From assembly GCA_003252375.1 (NCBI GenBank), contig QKEJ01000083.1, positions 1 through 35,998 on the forward strand: a stretch of 35,998 nucleotides of DNA, in the 5' to 3' direction. Shown here one piece after another: positions 10,863 to 29,521 of the stretch; within the stretch, counting starts at the first letter, position 1, and each line of letters begins with the position of its first letter. The position numbers were made by a program, and so were the translations under genes. The stretch is from Halodesulfovibrio sp. (GTDB lineage Bacteria > Desulfobacterota > Desulfovibrionia > Desulfovibrionales > Desulfovibrionaceae). The notes under the pieces were generated by a model, which did not search any database, was not told the origin of the DNA, and saw only the letters and a program-made list of their open reading frames with translations.

Positions 10863-11819
10863 ATGAGTCTCAGCAGGCGTGATTTTGTAAAATTGTGCAC
10901 AGGCACGGTGGCTGGCATGGGTATTTCCCAGATGTTCCACCCCGGTGTCTGTGAAGCCATTTCCGGTAGTCTCAACGGCAGCCGTCCTCCGGTGCTGTGG
11001 GTACAGGGTTCTGGCTGCACCGGCTGTTCGGTATCGTTGCTGAACGCCGTCAACCCGCACATCAAGCAGGTTCTGCTCGATGTTATCAGTCTCGAGTTCC
11101 ACCCGACCGTCATGGCCTGGGAAGGCGAACCCGCCATGGAACACATGTTCAAGATTGCCGAGGAATACAAGGGCGGCTTCTTCCTTGCTGTGGAAGGTGC
11201 CGTGCCCGTTGCGGCAGATGGCAAGTATTGCGTCATCGGTGAAGCCCATCACAAGGAAATCACCATGGTTGACGCAATGAAGGAACTGGCCCCCAAGGCC
11301 GCCGCTGTTCTGGCTCTGGGTACCTGTGCCGCATATGGCGGCATCCCCGCAGCAGAAGGCAGCGAAACCGGCGCCATGTCCGTCAAGTCGTTCTTCGAAC
11401 AGGAAGGCATTGCCACTCCGGTGGTAAACATCCCCGGCTGCCCGCCCCATCCCGACTGGATCGTGGGTACCGTGGTTGTCGCTCTCGAAGCCATTAAGAC
11501 GCACGGCCTTGAAGCCGGGCTTGGTGAAGTCGTCAAGCTGCTTGACGATCAGGGCCGCCCCACACCCTTCTTTGGTGAAAACATTCACGACAACTGTCCT
11601 TACCTGCCCTTCTTCGAAGAGGACAAGATGAGTGAAACGCTCACCGATAAGGAAGGCTGCCGCATGAACCTGGGCTGCAAGGGCCCCAATGCCATGGCAG
11701 ACTGTTTCAAGCGCAAGTGGAACAACGGCATCAACTGGTGCGTGCAGAACTCTGTATGTATCGGCTGCGTGGAACCCGACTTCCCCGACGGACAGTCCCC
11801 GTTCTACGAGCCCATGTAA
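10863..11819 (+). CDS. hysB: Periplasmic [NiFeSe] hydrogenase, small subunit
   Basis: This subunit carries the three iron-sulfur clusters that pass electrons from the Ni-Fe-Se site to cytochrome c3. The 318-residue precursor begins with a Tat signal (SRRDFVK at residues 4-10, then a hydrophobic stretch to about 30), so the folded dimer is exported by Tat. The proximal-cluster motif is GSGCTGCSVSLL. The C-terminal part has Cys281, Cys293, Cys299 and Cys302 (CFKRKWNNGINWCVQNSVC, then IGC). The cysteine in NWCVQ replaces the proline of standard [NiFe] enzymes and predicts a [4Fe-4S] medial cluster. The sequence closely resembles D. vulgaris HysB as I remember it. The ribosome site is AAGGAGG, and hysA follows after 40 bases. 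Confidence 0.96.
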   Translation: MSLSRRDFVKLCTGTVAGMGISQMFHPGVCEAISGSLNGSRPPVLWVQGSGCTGCSVSLLNAVNPHIKQVLLDVISLEFHPTVMAWEGEPAMEHMFKIAEEYKGGFFLAVEGAVPVAADGKYCVIGEAHHKEITMVDAMKELAPKAAAVLALGTCAAYGGIPAAEGSETGAMSVKSFFEQEGIATPVVNIPGCPPHPDWIVGTVVVALEAIKTHGLEAGLGEVVKLLDDQGRPTPFFGENIHDNCPYLPFFEEDKMSETLTDKEGCRMNLGCKGPNAMADCFKRKWNNGINWCVQNSVCIGCVEPDFPDGQSPFYEPM

Positions 11820-11859: not shown

Positions 11860-13404
11860 ATGTCTTCTTGTTCACGCACAGGTGCTGCCGGTCACGGCAA
11901 GTCCGCAACCATCGCCATTGATCCGGTGACCCGCATTGAAGGTCACCTCAAGGCCGAGGTTGTCGTCGAAGACGGCAAGGTTGTGGACGCCCACCTTACG
12001 GGTGGCATGTACCGCGGTTTTGAAACGATTCTCCGTGGTCGCGATCCCCGCGACTCTTCCCAGATAGTACAGCGCATTTGCGGCGTCTGCCCCACGGCAC
12101 ACGCAACCGCTTCGGTTATGGCTCAGGATTCCGCCATGGGCACCAAGGTGACCACTAACGGCCGCATCACCCGTAACCTGATCCTCGGCGCCAACTACCT
12201 GCAGTCCCATATCCTGCACTTCTACCATCTGGCCGCCCAGGACTTTGTCCAGGGGCCGGACAGCGCACCTTTCGTGCCCCGCTACAAGCACTCCGACCTG
12301 CTCACCGACCGCAACAAGGGCCTTGCCGCTGTCAACGCCGCGGCTGTGGACCAGTACGTCGAAGCGCTGGACGTACGTCAGATCTGCCATGAAATGGTTG
12401 CCATCTTCGGCGGCAAGATGCCTCATGCTCAGGGGCTCGTTGCCGGTGGCGCCTCCGAAATCCCCACCAAGGACCGCATACTCGAATATGCTGCACGGTT
12501 CGACAAGGTGAAGGAATTCGTCATCAACAAGTACCTGCCCGTCGTCTACACCGTCGGCTCTCAGTACAAGGATCTCTTCGCTGTCGGCCAGGGCCACCGC
12601 GCCTGTATCGCCTACGGCGTGTTCCCCCTGAACGACGACATGACCGAGTTCATGCTGAACCCCGGCGTGTACTACGGCGGCAAGGATCACAAGCTTGATC
12701 CTGCCAAGATTCACGAAGACGTGAAGTACTCCTGGTTCGACGACAGCACCTCCGGGCTGCACTACTCCAAGGGGCAGACCAAGCCTGCTCCCACCAAGGA
12801 AGGCGCTTACTCCTTCGTCAAGGCACCCCGTTATGACGGCGTGGCCTGCGAAGTGGGTCCCCTGGCCCGTATGTGGGTGGAAAACCCGACCCTGTCCCCC
12901 GTGGGCCAGAAGATGCTCAAGGAGCACTTCGGCCTCAACGCCAAGAAGTTCCGCGACCTGGGCGAAGACGCCGCGTTCTCCCTCATGGGCCGCCATGTGG
13001 CCCGTGCCGAGGAAACCTGGTACCTGCTCGGCTTCGTCGAACAGTGGCTGAAGGACGTGAAGCCCGGTGAAGAAACCTACGTGAAGCCCGAGATTCCGGT
13101 TTCCGGCATAGGCACCGGCTTTACCGAAGCCCCCCGTGGTTCCCTGCTGCACTTCCTCAAGATCGAGGACAGCAAGATCGACAACTACCAGATCGTCTCC
13201 GCAACACTGTGGAACTGCAACCCCCGGGATGACAAGGGCCAGCGCGGCCCCGTGGAAGAAGCCCTTATCGGCATTCCCGTTCCGGACATTGAAAACCCCG
13301 TCAACGTGGCGCGGCTCATCCGCGCCTTTGACCCGTGACTGGGCTGTGCCGTGCACGTGATGCACGCAGAGTCCGGCAAGGTTTCCGTTATCGAGTGCAA
13401 GTAA
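11860..13404 (+). CDS. hysA: Periplasmic [NiFeSe] hydrogenase, large subunit (selenoprotein; UGA 13336-13338 = Sec493)
   Basis: This catalytic subunit holds the Ni-Fe site. Residues RICGVC (Cys74, Cys77) give two ligands near the N-terminus. The C-terminal ligand motif is DP-U-LGC-AVH: the codon at 13336-13338 is TGA and aligns with the nickel ligand that is Cys in [NiFe] enzymes. The same frame continues with LGCAVHVMHAESGKVSVIEC and a final Lys, to TAA at 13402-13404, giving 514 residues. If TGA were a stop, the protein would lack both C-terminal metal ligands. Sec493 and Cys496 are the ligands. HysD should cleave after His499, removing 15 residues. A SECIS-like hairpin follows the TGA. There is no signal peptide, and export is with HysB. 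Cys4 near the start may be lipidated. Confidence 0.96.
13336..13374 (+). promoter_or_regulatory. UGA selenocysteine codon with bacterial SECIS-like hairpin
   Basis: Eleven bases after the TGA, CGTGCA (13350-13355) pairs with TGCACG (13361-13366) around the loop CGTGA. The stem extends downward as GGGCTGTG (13341-13348) against CAGAGTCC (13367-13374), with one G-G mismatch, one G-T pair and a bulged C. Bacterial SECIS elements lie in the reading frame just downstream of UGA at this spacing and recruit SelB-Sec-tRNA. The element also encodes residues after Sec. Confidence 0.8.
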
Positions 13405-13428
13405 CTCGTCGGAGTCATGCCATATTGG

Positions 13429-13455
13429 GAGGGCCGGTCATCCGGCCCTCTTTTT
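13429..13455 (+). terminator. Terminator or attenuator between hysA and hysD
   Basis: A nine-base perfect stem GAGGGCCGG / CCGGCCCTC with loop TCAT is followed by five T residues. hysD lies 150 bases further on without an obvious strong promoter, so partial readthrough is likely. A second hairpin without a T-run (CCGGAGGG / CCCTCCGG) lies at 13499-13519. Confidence 0.8.
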
Positions 13456-13605
13456 ACTGGAACCACCTGCATACAATGCGGTGCGTGCCTTCTGCCAGCC
13501 GGAGGGCCTGCCCCTCCGGTCAGGCAGGTGGCACTTGCGTCCCTTTCCGCCAGCGGATAGCATCTGCCTCGTTCATCAACCCTCCCCAGCACAACAGGAT
13601 TGATC

Positions 13606-14085
13606 ATGGCTAAACTTTTGGTTCTCGGCATTGGCAACAGCCTGCTTACCGATGACGGCGTAGGCGTCTTCGCCGCGGAAGCCCTGCAGAAGGAATCGTG
13701 GCCCGAGGAGGTGACCATCATCGAAGGCGGCACCTTCACACAGGACATTTTCTACCTCTTCGAAGGATACGACCGCCTCCTTGTTCTCGATGTCATACAT
13801 GCCGGTCACAAGCCAGGAACACTGTATCAGCTGACCGAGGACGATCTTATTTCCAATGAAAAGCAACGCATGTCCATCCACGACATAGACATGGTCGATT
13901 CTCTCAAGATGTGCGAGCTTAAATGTGGCAGCAGACCACGTATGGAAATCCTTGGTATGGAACCACAGGATATCACGTCATGGAACATAGGGCTTTCCGA
14001 ACCGTGCCAGACAGTCTTTGAGGACTTTCTCTCTCTTGCACGCAAGACAATTCAACGCATTGTCGGTGAAATGCAGGCAACGTAA
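13606..14085 (+). CDS. hysD: Hydrogenase maturation endopeptidase for HysA
   Basis: This HyaD/HupD/HybD-type protease checks nickel insertion and removes the C-terminal tail of the large subunit in the cytoplasm before Tat export. The protein has 159 residues. Family signatures are LVLGIGNSLLTDDGVGVFAAE at the N-terminus with the metal-ligand Asp region, EGGTFTQDIFYLFEGYDRLLVLDVI with a second conserved acidic residue, and GMEPQDITSWNIGLSEP near the end. The start is the ATG at 13606 with AGGA six bases upstream. The TTG at 13600 is too close to that site. Position right after hysA indicates HysA as the substrate. It is distinct from the second protease gene at 17487. Confidence 0.9.
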   Translation: MAKLLVLGIGNSLLTDDGVGVFAAEALQKESWPEEVTIIEGGTFTQDIFYLFEGYDRLLVLDVIHAGHKPGTLYQLTEDDLISNEKQRMSIHDIDMVDSLKMCELKCGSRPRMEILGMEPQDITSWNIGLSEPCQTVFEDFLSLARKTIQRIVGEMQAT

Positions 14086-14122: not shown

Positions 14123-14710
14123 CCGCATACGGCTCTCCCCTCCACTGAGATTCACGCACATTTTTTTTCGGGAATCATATCTTCCACGTCCGGATATTGT
14201 GCAACCACACAGGTTTATCCACCACCCCTTCACGGCACACTGAGCACTCACGTCTCTTGCAGCCGCACATTCCCTCCCCCCTTTCCGCCTTCCGTTCCTG
14301 CCCATACAATACTCCCCAGCCCCCCGCATGACTGTTGCAGGACAGAGCGAATTGTCCACCTGCACGGAATACAACAGCCGCTCTTCCCTGTTTGCTCATT
14401 CAAATTTCCATCAAACAATTTTGAAAAACACCACCCTTCAATCACATACATCAATATGGTAAAGGAAAGTGCATTGAAGAAATGTATCTGCAAAGACATT
14501 TATCCTCCTTACCCTCTTTATCTTTTTGCTCTTTTGGTTGTATAGTCGCCGTGATTCTCGTTCAAGGGTGCTGCTTGTAACGGAAATCACGCAATACCTA
14601 TCCTGGCAGAAGGTAACGCACCCGCCCGGTCGCACTGGTTGCCCGGGCCAACTTCCGGAGTACGGGATGCTCCGGGATATGCAGACCCTGTTTTATTCAA
14701 GGAGGTTCCT
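14123..14710 (+). promoter_or_regulatory. Long non-coding region upstream of hynBA
   Basis: These 588 bases separate the two hydrogenase operons. Composition differs sharply from neighbouring genes, with C-rich and A/T-rich stretches and several short homopolymer runs. The frames present have poor codon use and no motif, so I see no gene. It should hold the hyn promoter and any metal-responsive control. A -10-like TATAGT lies at 14541-14546 without a good -35 box. The hynB ribosome site AAGGAGG lies at 14699-14705. Confidence 0.5.
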
Positions 14711-15664
14711 ATGAAGTTTTCTGTGGGTCTCGGCAAAGATGGCGCGGAAGAGCGTCTGGAACGGAACGGCGTATCACGCCGTGACTTCCTGAAGTTCTGC
14801 TCTACCCTTGCCGTTGCCATGGGTATGGGGCCGGCATTTGGCAGCGAGATTGCCAGAGCCATGACCGCTCCCGGTCGCCCTTCCGTGGTCTATCTGCACA
14901 ATGCCGAGTGCACCGGCTGCTCCGAATCCGTTCTGCGGGCATTCCAGCCCTTCATTGATGAGCTGATTCTGGACACCATTTCTCTGGATTACCATGAAAC
15001 CATCATGGCTGCTGCCGGTGAAGCTGCGGAAGAAGCGCTGCACCATGCCGTCAACAGCCCGCACGGATTCATCGCCGTGACCGAAGGCGCGCTGCCCACC
15101 AAGGACAACGGCATTTACGGCAAGGTTGCCGGCCGCACCATGCTGGAAATCAACAGCGAAATCCTTCCCAAGGCCCAGGCCGTCATCAACTACGGCACCT
15201 GCGCCACCTTCGGTGGTGTGCAGGCCGCTGCACCGAACCCGACGGACGCCAAGGGCGTGAACGAAGCCCTCAAGCACCTCGGTGTCAATGGTATCAACAT
15301 TTCCGGTTGCCCCCCGAACCCGTACAACCTTGTTGGCACCATCGTATACTACCTGACCAAGCACGCCCTGCCGGAGCTTGATTCCCTGAATCGTCCCACC
15401 ATGTTCTTCGGGCAGTCCGTTCACGAACAGTGCCCGCGCCTCCCGCACTTCGAAGCCGGCGAGTTCGCTCCCTCCTTCGGATCCGAAGAGGCCCGGAAGG
15501 GCTGGTGTCTCTATGAACTGGGCTGCAAGGGTCCTGATACCTACAACAACTGTCCCAAGATCAAGTTCAACCAGACCAACTGGCCCGTTGAAGCCGGCCA
15601 TCCCTGCATCGGTTGCTCAGAGCCCGATTTCTGGGATGCCATGAGCCCCTTCTACGAAAGCTAG
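14711..15664 (+). CDS. hynB: Periplasmic [NiFe] hydrogenase, small subunit
   Basis: This subunit carries the electron-transfer iron-sulfur clusters of the second hydrogenase. The 317-residue precursor has a Tat signal (SRRDFLKF at about residues 22-29, followed by a hydrophobic segment) and the proximal-cluster motif [13 protein letters not shown]. The C-terminal part has [19 protein letters not shown] with Cys281 and Pro292, then IGC with Cys302. The proline at the position used by Cys in HysB is the hallmark of a [3Fe-4S] medial cluster. The ATG at 14711 has AAGGAGG five bases upstream. An upstream in-frame ATG at 14639 would add unrelated residues. hynA follows after 45 bases. The subunit is called HynB in D. 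vulgaris and HynA in some other species. Confidence 0.96.
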
Positions 15665-15709
15665 TCTGTTGCCATTGATCTTGAACGAACATCCCAAGGA
15701 GGATGACAT

Positions 15710-17413
15710 ATGAGCGGTTGTAGAGCGCAGAAGGCCCCTGCCGGTATTCCGGTTACTCCTCAGAGCACGTACTCCGGTAAGGTGGTCGTTGACCCCATTA
15801 CCCGTATTGAGGGGCATCTTCGTATCGAAGTTGAAGTTGATAACGGCAAGATCTCCAATGTATGGAGCTCTTCCCAGCTGTTCCGCGGCCTGGAACTCAT
15901 TCTGAAAGGCCGCGATCCCCGCGATGCACAGCACTTCACCCAGCGTTCCTGCGGTGTGTGTACCTATGTGCACGCTCTTGCATCCACCCGCTGCGTGGAT
16001 AACGCCATCGGCGTGCGCATTCCCAAGAATGCCACGCTGATCCGTAACATTGTCCTCGGCGCGCAGTACATGCACGACCATCTCGTGCACTTCTATCACC
16101 TGCACGCCCTTGACTGGGTAGACGTAACCAACGCCCTGAAGGCCGATCCGGTGAAGGCTGCCAAGATCGCCAACACCATCTCCGGCCGTCCCACCAAGGC
16201 TGAAGACCTGAAGGCCGTTCAGGCCAAGCTGAAGACGTTTGTGGACAGCGGCCAGCTGGGCCCGTTCACCAACGCCTACTTCCTCGGCGGCCATCCTTCC
16301 TACTATCTGGAACCCGAAGTGGACCTCATCGCCACCGCCCACTACCTGGAAGCCCTGCGCCTCCAGGTCAAGGCTGCCCGCATGATGGCCACCTTCGGCG
16401 GCAAGAACCCCCACACCCAGTTCACGGTTGCCGGCGGCGTTACCTGCTATGACGCGCTTACTCCCAAGCGCATCAAGGAATTCCGCGACCTGTGGAAGGA
16501 AACCAACGACTTCATCAATCAGGTGTACATCCCCGATCTGTTGGCTGTTGCCGCCAACTACAAGGATTGGAGCCTGTACGGCGGCACCTCGAACTTCATC
16601 ACCTTCGGCGAATTCCCGAAGGACGAGTACGATCTGAACAGCCGCTTCCTGAACCCCGGCGTCATCATGAACCGCGACCTCGGCAAGATGACTGCCTTCA
16701 ACCCGGACAAGATTCAGGAACACGTCAAGTACAGCTGGTACGAAGGCGACAAGTCCCACCATCCGTACGAAGGCGTCACCGAACCCCGCTACACCGACAT
16801 GCACGGCGAAGACCGCTACTCCTGGATGAAGGCTCCCCGGTACATGGACGAAGCCATGGAAACCGGTCCCCTCGCCCAGGTTCTGGCAGCCTACGCCGCC
16901 AACCACCCGAAGATCACCCCGCTGGTCAACATGGTGCTCGGCAAGCTGGGTGTTGGCGCTGAAGCCCTGTTCTCCACCCTCGGCCGTACGGCTGCCCGCG
17001 GTATTGAAACCGTGGTCATCGCCGAAGAAACCGGTCGCATGCTGGACGAACTGGAAGCCAACGTGGCTGCCGGCGACAACAAGATCTACGAAGAAATCGA
17101 AATGCCCCGCGATGCGGAAGGCGTCGGCTTCGTCACCGCTCCCCGTGGCGCACTGTCCCACTGGATCAAGATTCGCGATCACAAGATCGAGAACTTCCAG
17201 CTGGTCGTGCCCTCCACCTGGAGCCTCGGACCGCGCTGCGGCAACGACAAGATCTCCCCTGTGGAAGAAGCACTTGTCGGCACGCCCGTGGCCGATCCCA
17301 AGCGCCCCGTGGAAATCCTTCGTACGGTCCACTCCTTCGACCCCTGCATCGCCTGCGGCGTGCACGTGATCGACAGCCAGACCAACGAAGTCCACAAGTT
17401 CAAGATCCTGTAG
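15710..17413 (+). CDS. hynA: Periplasmic [NiFe] hydrogenase, large subunit
   Basis: This catalytic subunit of the standard [NiFe] uptake hydrogenase has 567 residues. The N-terminal metal motif is RSCGVC (Cys81, Cys84) and the C-terminal one is DPCIACGVH (Cys546, Cys549). Here the first C-terminal ligand is Cys, in contrast to Sec in HysA. Cleavage after His552 would remove the 15-residue tail VIDSQTNEVHKFKIL and is expected to be done by the protease at 17487. There is no signal peptide, so export depends on the Tat signal of HynB. Cys4 (MSGC) is at the same place as in HysA. The ribosome site is AAGGAGG, and a terminator follows the stop codon. Confidence 0.97.
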   Translation: MSGCRAQKAPAGIPVTPQSTYSGKVVVDPITRIEGHLRIEVEVDNGKISNVWSSSQLFRGLELILKGRDPRDAQHFTQRSCGVCTYVHALASTRCVDNAIGVRIPKNATLIRNIVLGAQYMHDHLVHFYHLHALDWVDVTNALKADPVKAAKIANTISGRPTKAEDLKAVQAKLKTFVDSGQLGPFTNAYFLGGHPSYYLEPEVDLIATAHYLEALRLQVKAARMMATFGGKNPHTQFTVAGGVTCYDALTPKRIKEFRDLWKETNDFINQVYIPDLLAVAANYKDWSLYGGTSNFITFGEFPKDEYDLNSRFLNPGVIMNRDLGKMTAFNPDKIQEHVKYSWYEGDKSHHPYEGVTEPRYTDMHGEDRYSWMKAPRYMDEAMETGPLAQVLAAYAANHPKITPLVNMVLGKLGVGAEALFSTLGRTAARGIETVVIAEETGRMLDELEANVAAGDNKIYEEIEMPRDAEGVGFVTAPRGALSHWIKIRDHKIENFQLVVPSTWSLGPRCGNDKISPVEEALVGTPVADPKRPVEILRTVHSFDPCIACGVHVIDSQTNEVHKFKIL

Positions 17414-17439
17414 TTTCTGCAGGAAAATGCAAAAAACTG

Positions 17440-17471
17440 GGGAACCCGGCCTTGCGCCGGGTTCCCTTTTT
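17440..17471 (+). terminator. Terminator or attenuator between hynA and hynC
   Basis: An eleven-base perfect stem GGGAACCCGGC / GCCGGGTTCCC with loop CTTGC is followed by five T residues. The protease gene starts 16 bases later, so some readthrough would be needed to express hynC and hypC. This mirrors the hysA-hysD junction. Confidence 0.88.
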
Positions 17472-17486
17472 CAGATAAGGTACCGC

Positions 17487-17981
17487 ATGAGCAATGGTAA
17501 ACGAATTCTGGTACTTGGTGTAGGCAACATCCTGTACACCGATGAAGGACTGGGCGTGCGCGCCGTGGAACGGCTGCAGGAGGAGTACACCTTCTCCGAA
17601 AACGTCACCCTCATGGATGGCGGCACGCTGGGCATGAAACTCATGGATTCCATGATGGACAGCGACTATCTGATCGTAGTAGATGCGGTTCTGGGGGGCA
17701 GTGATCCTGCTTCCGTGTATCGCCTGACCGGCGAGGACCTGCGCAAGAGCCTCGGTTTCAACGATTCCATGCACCAGACAGACCTCGTCGACACGCTCAT
17801 TTACTGCGAGCTGGCCGGCAACCGTCCCGAAACGGTCGTCATCGGCATGGAGCCGGTGGACTACCACAGCATGGGGCTGGAAGTCTCTCCCGCCGTGGCA
17901 AACCGGCTGCCCGACATGTGCAGATTCGTCCTGGACGAGGTAGCCTCCGTAGGCGGCAGTTTCACCCCCAAGGCGTCCTGA
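17487..17981 (+). CDS. hynC: Hydrogenase maturation endopeptidase for HynA
   Basis: This HyaD/HupD-type protease trims the C-terminus of a [NiFe] large subunit after nickel loading. The protein has 164 residues. It shows LVLGVGNILYTDEGLGVRAVERLQ with the conserved acidic metal ligand, MDGGTLGMKLMDSMMDSDYLIVVDAV with the second one, and GMEPVDYHSMGLEVSP. The start is the ATG at 17487 with ATAAGG about six bases upstream. The frame is open back to 17427 but runs through the terminator hairpin there. Position after hynA suggests HynA as the substrate. It differs clearly from HysD, so each hydrogenase appears to have a dedicated protease. Confidence 0.92.
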   Translation: MSNGKRILVLGVGNILYTDEGLGVRAVERLQEEYTFSENVTLMDGGTLGMKLMDSMMDSDYLIVVDAVLGGSDPASVYRLTGEDLRKSLGFNDSMHQTDLVDTLIYCELAGNRPETVVIGMEPVDYHSMGLEVSPAVANRLPDMCRFVLDEVASVGGSFTPKAS

Positions 17982-29146: not shown

Positions 29147-29507
29147 GGAGTCGGACGGGTTATCGCTGCGGGCCATCGGCCCGGAGAGGAAAGTCCGGGC
29201 TCCGCAGGGCAGAGCGCTGGGTAACGCCCAGGAAGAGTGATCTTCGGACAGTGCCACAGAAAACAAACCGCCTTCGGACTCCGGTCCGACGGTAAGGGTG
29301 AAACGGTGGGGTAAGAGCCCACCAGATGCCACGGTGACGCGGCATGCTTGGTAAACCCCGTTCGGAGCAAGACCAAATAGGGAAGCATTTAAGGTCGGCC
29401 CGGCCGCTGCTTCCGGGTAGGTTGCTGGAGGTCACGGGTAACCGTGATCCTAGATGAATGATAGCCCCCCTGCAAAGGGGACAGAACCCGGCTTACAGTC
29501 CGACTCC
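29147..29507 (+). ncRNA. rnpB: RNase P RNA, bacterial class A
   Basis: This is the catalytic RNA that trims the 5' leader of tRNA precursors. Its two ends pair: GGAGTCGGAC at 29147-29156 with GTCCGACTCC at 29498-29507 (helix P1). Conserved core blocks are present: GAGGAAAGTCCGGGCTCC near the 5' end, CAGGGCAGAGCGCTGGGTAACG, CCACAGAAAACAAACCGCC, GGTAAGGGTGAAACGGTG, GGTAAGAGCCCACC and GGTAAACCCCG, and near the 3' end AGATGAATGATAGCC and ACAGAACCCGGCTTACAG. The pattern is that of ancestral type A RNA. The mature ends are set from P1 and may differ by a base or two. Confidence 0.97.
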
Positions 29508-29521
29508 ACTACGTGATCCGA

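Follow-up and report, generated by a model that had tools for sequence, protein, structure and literature searches.

The large-subunit gene of a [NiFeSe] hydrogenase, hysA (11860–13404, forward strand), from a Halodesulfovibrio sp. carries an in-frame UGA codon (13336–13338, forward strand) that is almost certainly read as selenocysteine (Sec) through a SECIS element, completing the subunit. All positions refer to the window, the whole stretch of 35,998 nucleotides that was analyzed. The frame opens with ATG at 11860, meets the TGA at 13336–13338, and then reads LGCAVHVMHAESGKVSVIECK up to a TAA at 13402–13404. Because it stays open to this stop, the gene is 22 codons longer, TGA included, than the plain ORF call (11860–13338; 492-residue product), as the original prediction had claimed. 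We regard the in-frame UGA and the readthrough extension as confirmed.

The readthrough protein

The readthrough protein has 514 residues, with Sec at position 493, and its C-terminus reads DPULGCAVHVMHAESGKVSVIECK. It scores 908 bits against the curated NCBIfam model NF045518 (cut-off 780) over residues 16–504. This is a dedicated HysA model of the kind "exception", which we take to serve recoded genes. When aligned to characterized HysA proteins, a comparison that the original prediction had suggested, the readthrough sequence matched solved [NiFeSe] large subunits, its best-matching structures, through the Sec position and up to the last residue. In this alignment, U493 and C496 fall on the UxxC/CxxC pair at the C-terminus of the solved enzymes, the in-frame UGA accounting for the first residue of the pair. 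The two positions of this pair are metal ligands, and U493 would by homology bind Ni. Among the 11 distinct solved [NiFeSe] sequences listed, nine stop at the position corresponding to H499 and two (5jsu and 5jsh) reach the one corresponding to 514. The nine shorter chain ends fit a cleavage at that point, as in matured chains, and by homology 13357–13401 (forward strand) would encode the C-terminal peptide V500–K514, cut off after H499 at maturation. The 492-residue product ends before the residues aligned to the ligand pair and the cleavage site, in line with the earlier claim that both would be missing if the UGA were not read through. According to a 2026 review (PMC13188914), selenoprotein genes are frequently truncated by automatic tools, in agreement with the original prediction; for hysA itself, truncation is a possibility only, as NCBIfam does hold the dedicated model.

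Directly shown here are the reading frame with its homology, a conserved hairpin, and the genes of the Sec machinery; that SelB binds, that Sec is inserted, and that the protein is exported, cleaved, and loaded with metal are inferred. The hysA product would be the large subunit of a periplasmic [NiFeSe] hydrogenase. SelB with Sec-tRNA(Sec) would bind the SECIS hairpin, with its apical loop CGUGA, just 3′ of the UGA at 13336–13338, Sec would be inserted at this codon, and translation would continue to the UAA at 13402. The Ni–Fe site would be held by Sec493 and Cys496 together with the cysteines of the N-terminal RICGVC motif. The protease encoded at 13606–14085 would then cut after His499, taking off VMHAESGKVSVIECK, and the mature subunit would pair with HysB.

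The SECIS hairpin

The SECIS element spans 13339–13376 (forward strand), as judged from its fold and from its conservation relative to controls, the lower stem being weakly conserved. It is built from a lower stem (13339–13345 with 13370–13376), a middle stem (13347–13349 with 13366–13368), and an apical hairpin (13351–13365, forward strand) in which the stem GUGCA/UGCAC closes the loop CGUGA (13356–13360). The original prediction had placed a hairpin 11 bases after the TGA; the hairpin is there, and the spacing needs correction, as the apical stem starts at 13351 and leaves 12 bases between. The 45 nt that begin with the UGA have a folding energy of −23.9 kcal/mol; relative to dinucleotide shuffles, z is −3.69, with 1 of 200 as good. 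For 13336–13390, z is −2.31 (6 of 200 shuffles as good), and for the 75-nt stretch 13330–13404 it is only −1.37 (24 of 200).

A bacterial SECIS model is given in the 2026 review (PMC13188914), in the legend of its Fig 2: an apical loop of 3–9 nt, an upper stem of 4–16 bp, a G within the first two loop positions that is usually followed by G or U, a distance of 16–37 nt from the UGA to the apical loop, and a minimum free energy of −7.5 kcal/mol or below. The hairpin agrees with the model, as the original prediction had proposed: the loop has 5 nt and the apical stem 5 bp, CGUGA conforms to the rule on the G, and 17 nt (13339–13355) separate the UGA from the apical loop. The energy of −23.9 kcal/mol also lies below the limit, which is lenient, since all seven Cys sequences described below pass it too. 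Rfam returned no SECIS family at gathering score over the whole window, nor at E up to 10 over 13250–13460, where ten weak matches all fell far under their gathering scores.

Conservation across the order

A search with NF045518 in 297 genomes of the order found 84 places over the cut-off, from 83 genomes. The codon at the Sec position was read in every one of them and is TGA in 84 of 84. Two genomes (G272 and G275) hold truncated sub-cut-off matches that end before the Sec site, and another sub-cut-off match (G265:C209:3899–5011, 265.5 bits) contains one internal TGA. The nearest named relatives of the window's HysA are both from Halodesulfovibrio (L031, 83.0%, and L020, 80.7% protein identity), and the nearest same-genus genome encodes a HysA at 92.2%. 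One same-genus hysA (L053, genome G143) has a second in-frame TGA at 2806–2808, its Sec-UGA at 2932 being intact. The extra TGA aligns with the Trp of ATLWNCNPRDD in the window's HysA and is probably a nonsense change or a sequencing error in that genome.

Counts for the hairpin use distinct 45-mers (49 TGA, 7 Cys), because named and other loci share identical 45-mers and possibly come from the same genomes. Of 17 named loci, 14 gave a site (12 TGA, 2 TGC); L032 and L035 end before it, and L028 was left out of this count, though a TGA is present there. Among the sub-cut-off matches listed, the site was read in four that were taken as Cys controls and in the window's [NiFe] gene. The seven Cys sequences comprise these four [NiFe] controls (L129–L132), two loci from Selenomonadales, and the [NiFe] large subunit of the window itself (site at 17345), which served as an internal control. 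Since L129–L132 were chosen for having no reported internal stop, their Cys codon follows from selection, and only the absence of the hairpin in them is a result.

All five apical pairs are present in 48 of the 49 distinct TGA sequences, versus none of the seven Cys sequences. As the protein is so conserved, each distinct 45-mer was compared with 500 random synonymous versions built from the codons of its own gene (for the window's 45-mer, the codons of L044, which has an identical 45-mer). Apical pairs average 4.98 in the TGA sequences (synonymous expectation 3.97) and 2.86 in the Cys sequences (expectation 3.23). In one relative, L117, a Gln at position 502 breaks an apical pair with no compensation. 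The apical stem is a strong discriminator of TGA from Cys sequences, the Cys controls being few and four of them preselected.

The other features of the element discriminate little. None of the 500 synonymous versions of the window's 45-mer folds as well (mean −12.2, sd 2.8). Across the set, the 45-nt energy beats the synonymous versions at P ≤ 0.05 in 22 of the 49 TGA sequences, whose z averages −1.51, and in one of the seven Cys sequences, whose z averages −0.95, which makes the energy of the whole stretch a weak discriminator and leaves the apical stem as the only strongly supported part. The GU of the loop occurs in all 49 TGA sequences, but in all seven Cys sequences as well; because it begins the conserved Val500 codon, shared with the Cys sequences, it fits the model and carries no independent weight. 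The lower stem averages 5.08 of 7 pairs in the TGA sequences, against a synonymous expectation of 4.55, and its pair 13343–13372 is found in only 6 of 49; given this variability, the long stem of the window is partly local to its clade. One apical pair (13353–13363) covaries, being G–C in 47 of the distinct sequences, U–A in one, and C–G in one. All 49 were paired there in 7 of 20,000 shuffles, a statistic that ignores relatedness and reflects at least two changes, not many. In this family comparison, the 5-bp apical stem is the most constrained part of the SECIS.

Gene neighborhood and selenocysteine machinery

The genomic partners of HysA, its small subunit and its maturation protease, adjoin hysA, and both score over their cut-offs. 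Upstream, hysB (10863–11819, forward strand) encodes the [NiFeSe] small subunit (NF045520, 588.2 bits, cut-off 470) with a Tat signal (TIGR01409, 25.9 bits, cut-off 16.7). Downstream, hysD (13606–14085, forward strand; start at TTG 13600 or ATG 13606 possible) encodes the [NiFeSe] maturation protease (NF045519, 253 bits, cut-off 190). A probable intrinsic terminator (13427–13452, forward strand) lies 3′ of hysA, where 13422–13465 folds at −22.1 kcal/mol (z −4.11) and is followed by a T run. The pattern scan of the forward strand after hysA listed no terminator; our guess is that this is due to G–T pairs running into the T tract. At 29147–29511, the window also contains an RNase P RNA (RF00010, 342.6 bits).

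A Cys-type [NiFe] hydrogenase set adjoins downstream (14639–17413), its small subunit preceding a large subunit. It shares superfamily and layout with hysBA (PF00374, PF01058, PF14720) and has DPCIACGVH at the same place. It differs from hysA in reading TGC at 17345–17347, in forming 3 of 5 apical pairs, and in the fold of its site, which gives z −0.01 against dinucleotide shuffles. By eye, a 184-residue ORF after this hydrogenase (set 14639–17981) is a candidate maturation protease.

The original prediction expected selA, selB, selC, and selD elsewhere in the genome. All four were found, each over its cut-off, in an assembly of 3.44 Mb (203 contigs, 86.5% complete), so that their absence is excluded. 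There is one match each for selA (618 bits), selB (363 bits), and selD (334 bits). For selC, a tRNA-Sec scores 80.2 bits (gathering score 47) and is the sole one of 16 matches over the gathering score; ARAGORN also calls it, with anticodon TCA. Judged by the presence of these genes, the organism is predicted to decode Sec. The selD gene itself has an in-frame UGA within a UAAK motif, in agreement with the UxxK that the review (PMC13188914) gives for selenophosphate synthetase. Of the five best formate dehydrogenase matches, three carry a UGA in UHSATVAAL, namely L067, L068, and L071, a fragment at a contig end; no UGA was seen in L069 or in L070, the latter matching only from position 138. The review (PMC13188914) lists UHxP, from which the UHSA of this genome's FdhA differs. 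These UGA codons mark selD and the three FdhA genes or fragments as other probable Sec genes of the genome.

Alternative explanations

The gene could be that of a Cys-type [NiFe] hydrogenase in which the TGA arose by sequencing error or nonsense mutation. The state of the assembly, with its 203 contigs and 86.5% completeness, leaves some room for this, and L053 provides an example of a lone extra TGA, at a Trp codon, that looks like a defect. Yet TGA stands at the same codon in 84 of 84 HysA places, which makes an error or mutation very unlikely; the downstream reading is also conserved and the Sec machinery is in the genome, and we give this explanation next to no weight. Were the TGA instead a true stop, as the simple ORF call finishing at 13338 would have it, the 492-residue product would have to function as a truncated subunit. 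That product would end short of the residues aligned to the ligand pair and of the cleavage site, whereas all 84 genes have ULGCAVHV unchanged and the solved [NiFeSe] chains contain the UxxC stretch, which renders a functional truncation extremely improbable.

In general, UGA may undergo some basal readthrough, and the codon might be read otherwise, for example by near-cognate insertion of Trp or Cys with no SECIS involved. This has a negligible chance of being correct in view of the full apical stem in 48 of 49 TGA versus 0 of 7 Cys sequences and the presence of selA–D. Sequencing error, true stop, and SECIS-free readthrough were therefore all rejected, on the conserved TGA, the conserved tail, the apical stem, and selA–D. 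The interpretation of hysA in the original prediction, that its UGA is read as Sec, is supported.

The peptide removed at maturation

In the 84 genes, the invariant stretch covers residues 493–500 and is followed by L, M, or V at 501, by H at 502 in 76, and by A at 503 in 78. Conservation drops further on, with E at 504 in 69 genes and E at 507 in 46. The tail after Sec ranges from 10 to 31 residues. In L120, the protein ends directly after A503, so that the removed peptide would have only four residues, and the hairpin is whole. In 13 of these 84 genes, UGA appears to have two roles, encoding Sec and ending the frame (L061, L066, L075, L097, L106, L110, L118, L119, L120, L123, L126, L127, and L128); in L120, the two are only 11 codons apart.

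The covarying pair 13353–13363 joins the third position of codon 498 (Val) to the first position of codon 502, and its changes accordingly turn His502 into Asn or Asp. Residue 502 is Asn in 6 of 84 genes (one 45-mer) and Asp in 1 of 84, always with a compensating third base at Val498. It is conceivable, if somewhat doubtful, that V500, L/M501, H502, and A503 are kept mainly as RNA, encoding the loop and the 3′ strand of the apical hairpin, and less for the protein; the compensated changes at 502 and the whole hairpin of the short-tailed L120 hint at this. Alternatively, the needs of the protease may hold the start of the removed peptide. Retention mainly for the RNA is countered by Gln502 in L117, which breaks the pair uncompensated, and by the seven Cys sequences, in which Val500 and the VHV stretch are found too.

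Relation to known systems

We take 5jsu, 5jsh, 2wpn, and others to be HysAB of Desulfovibrio vulgaris. The window's HysA belongs to the same family, with Sec/Cys at the aligned position, the same apparent cleavage point, and a closely similar tail (ending VIECK, versus VIEVK), and differs by five extra residues near 152–156. Chains 1cc1 and 4kl8, presumably the [NiFeSe] hydrogenase of Desulfomicrobium baculatum, match the window's HysA over residues 11–499 and 10–499. According to a 2023 paper (PMC10362691), the D. baculatum enzyme has U493, the same number as in the window's HysA, and undergoes C-terminal cleavage; its SECIS is described there as unlike that of E. coli. Two HysA-like large subunits from Selenomonadales (L033 and L034, 44–46% identity) have TGC at the site (DPCLACAVH). 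In a plasmid collection, 19 records gave short matches covering 2–3% of the query; the annotation reads nickel-dependent hydrogenase large subunit in 18 of these and is absent from one.

A readthrough HysA with a SECIS was already described in 2016 (PMC4730141), and the window's hysA is a gene of this known kind, common to many relatives and ordinary for its bacterial order. A modest addition beyond the known systems is that part of the maturation peptide may be kept for encoding the SECIS hairpin. Where the tail is very short, hysA is a candidate for a naturally minimal SECIS, and the correct end of hysA matters to the annotation, expression, and modeling of the enzyme.
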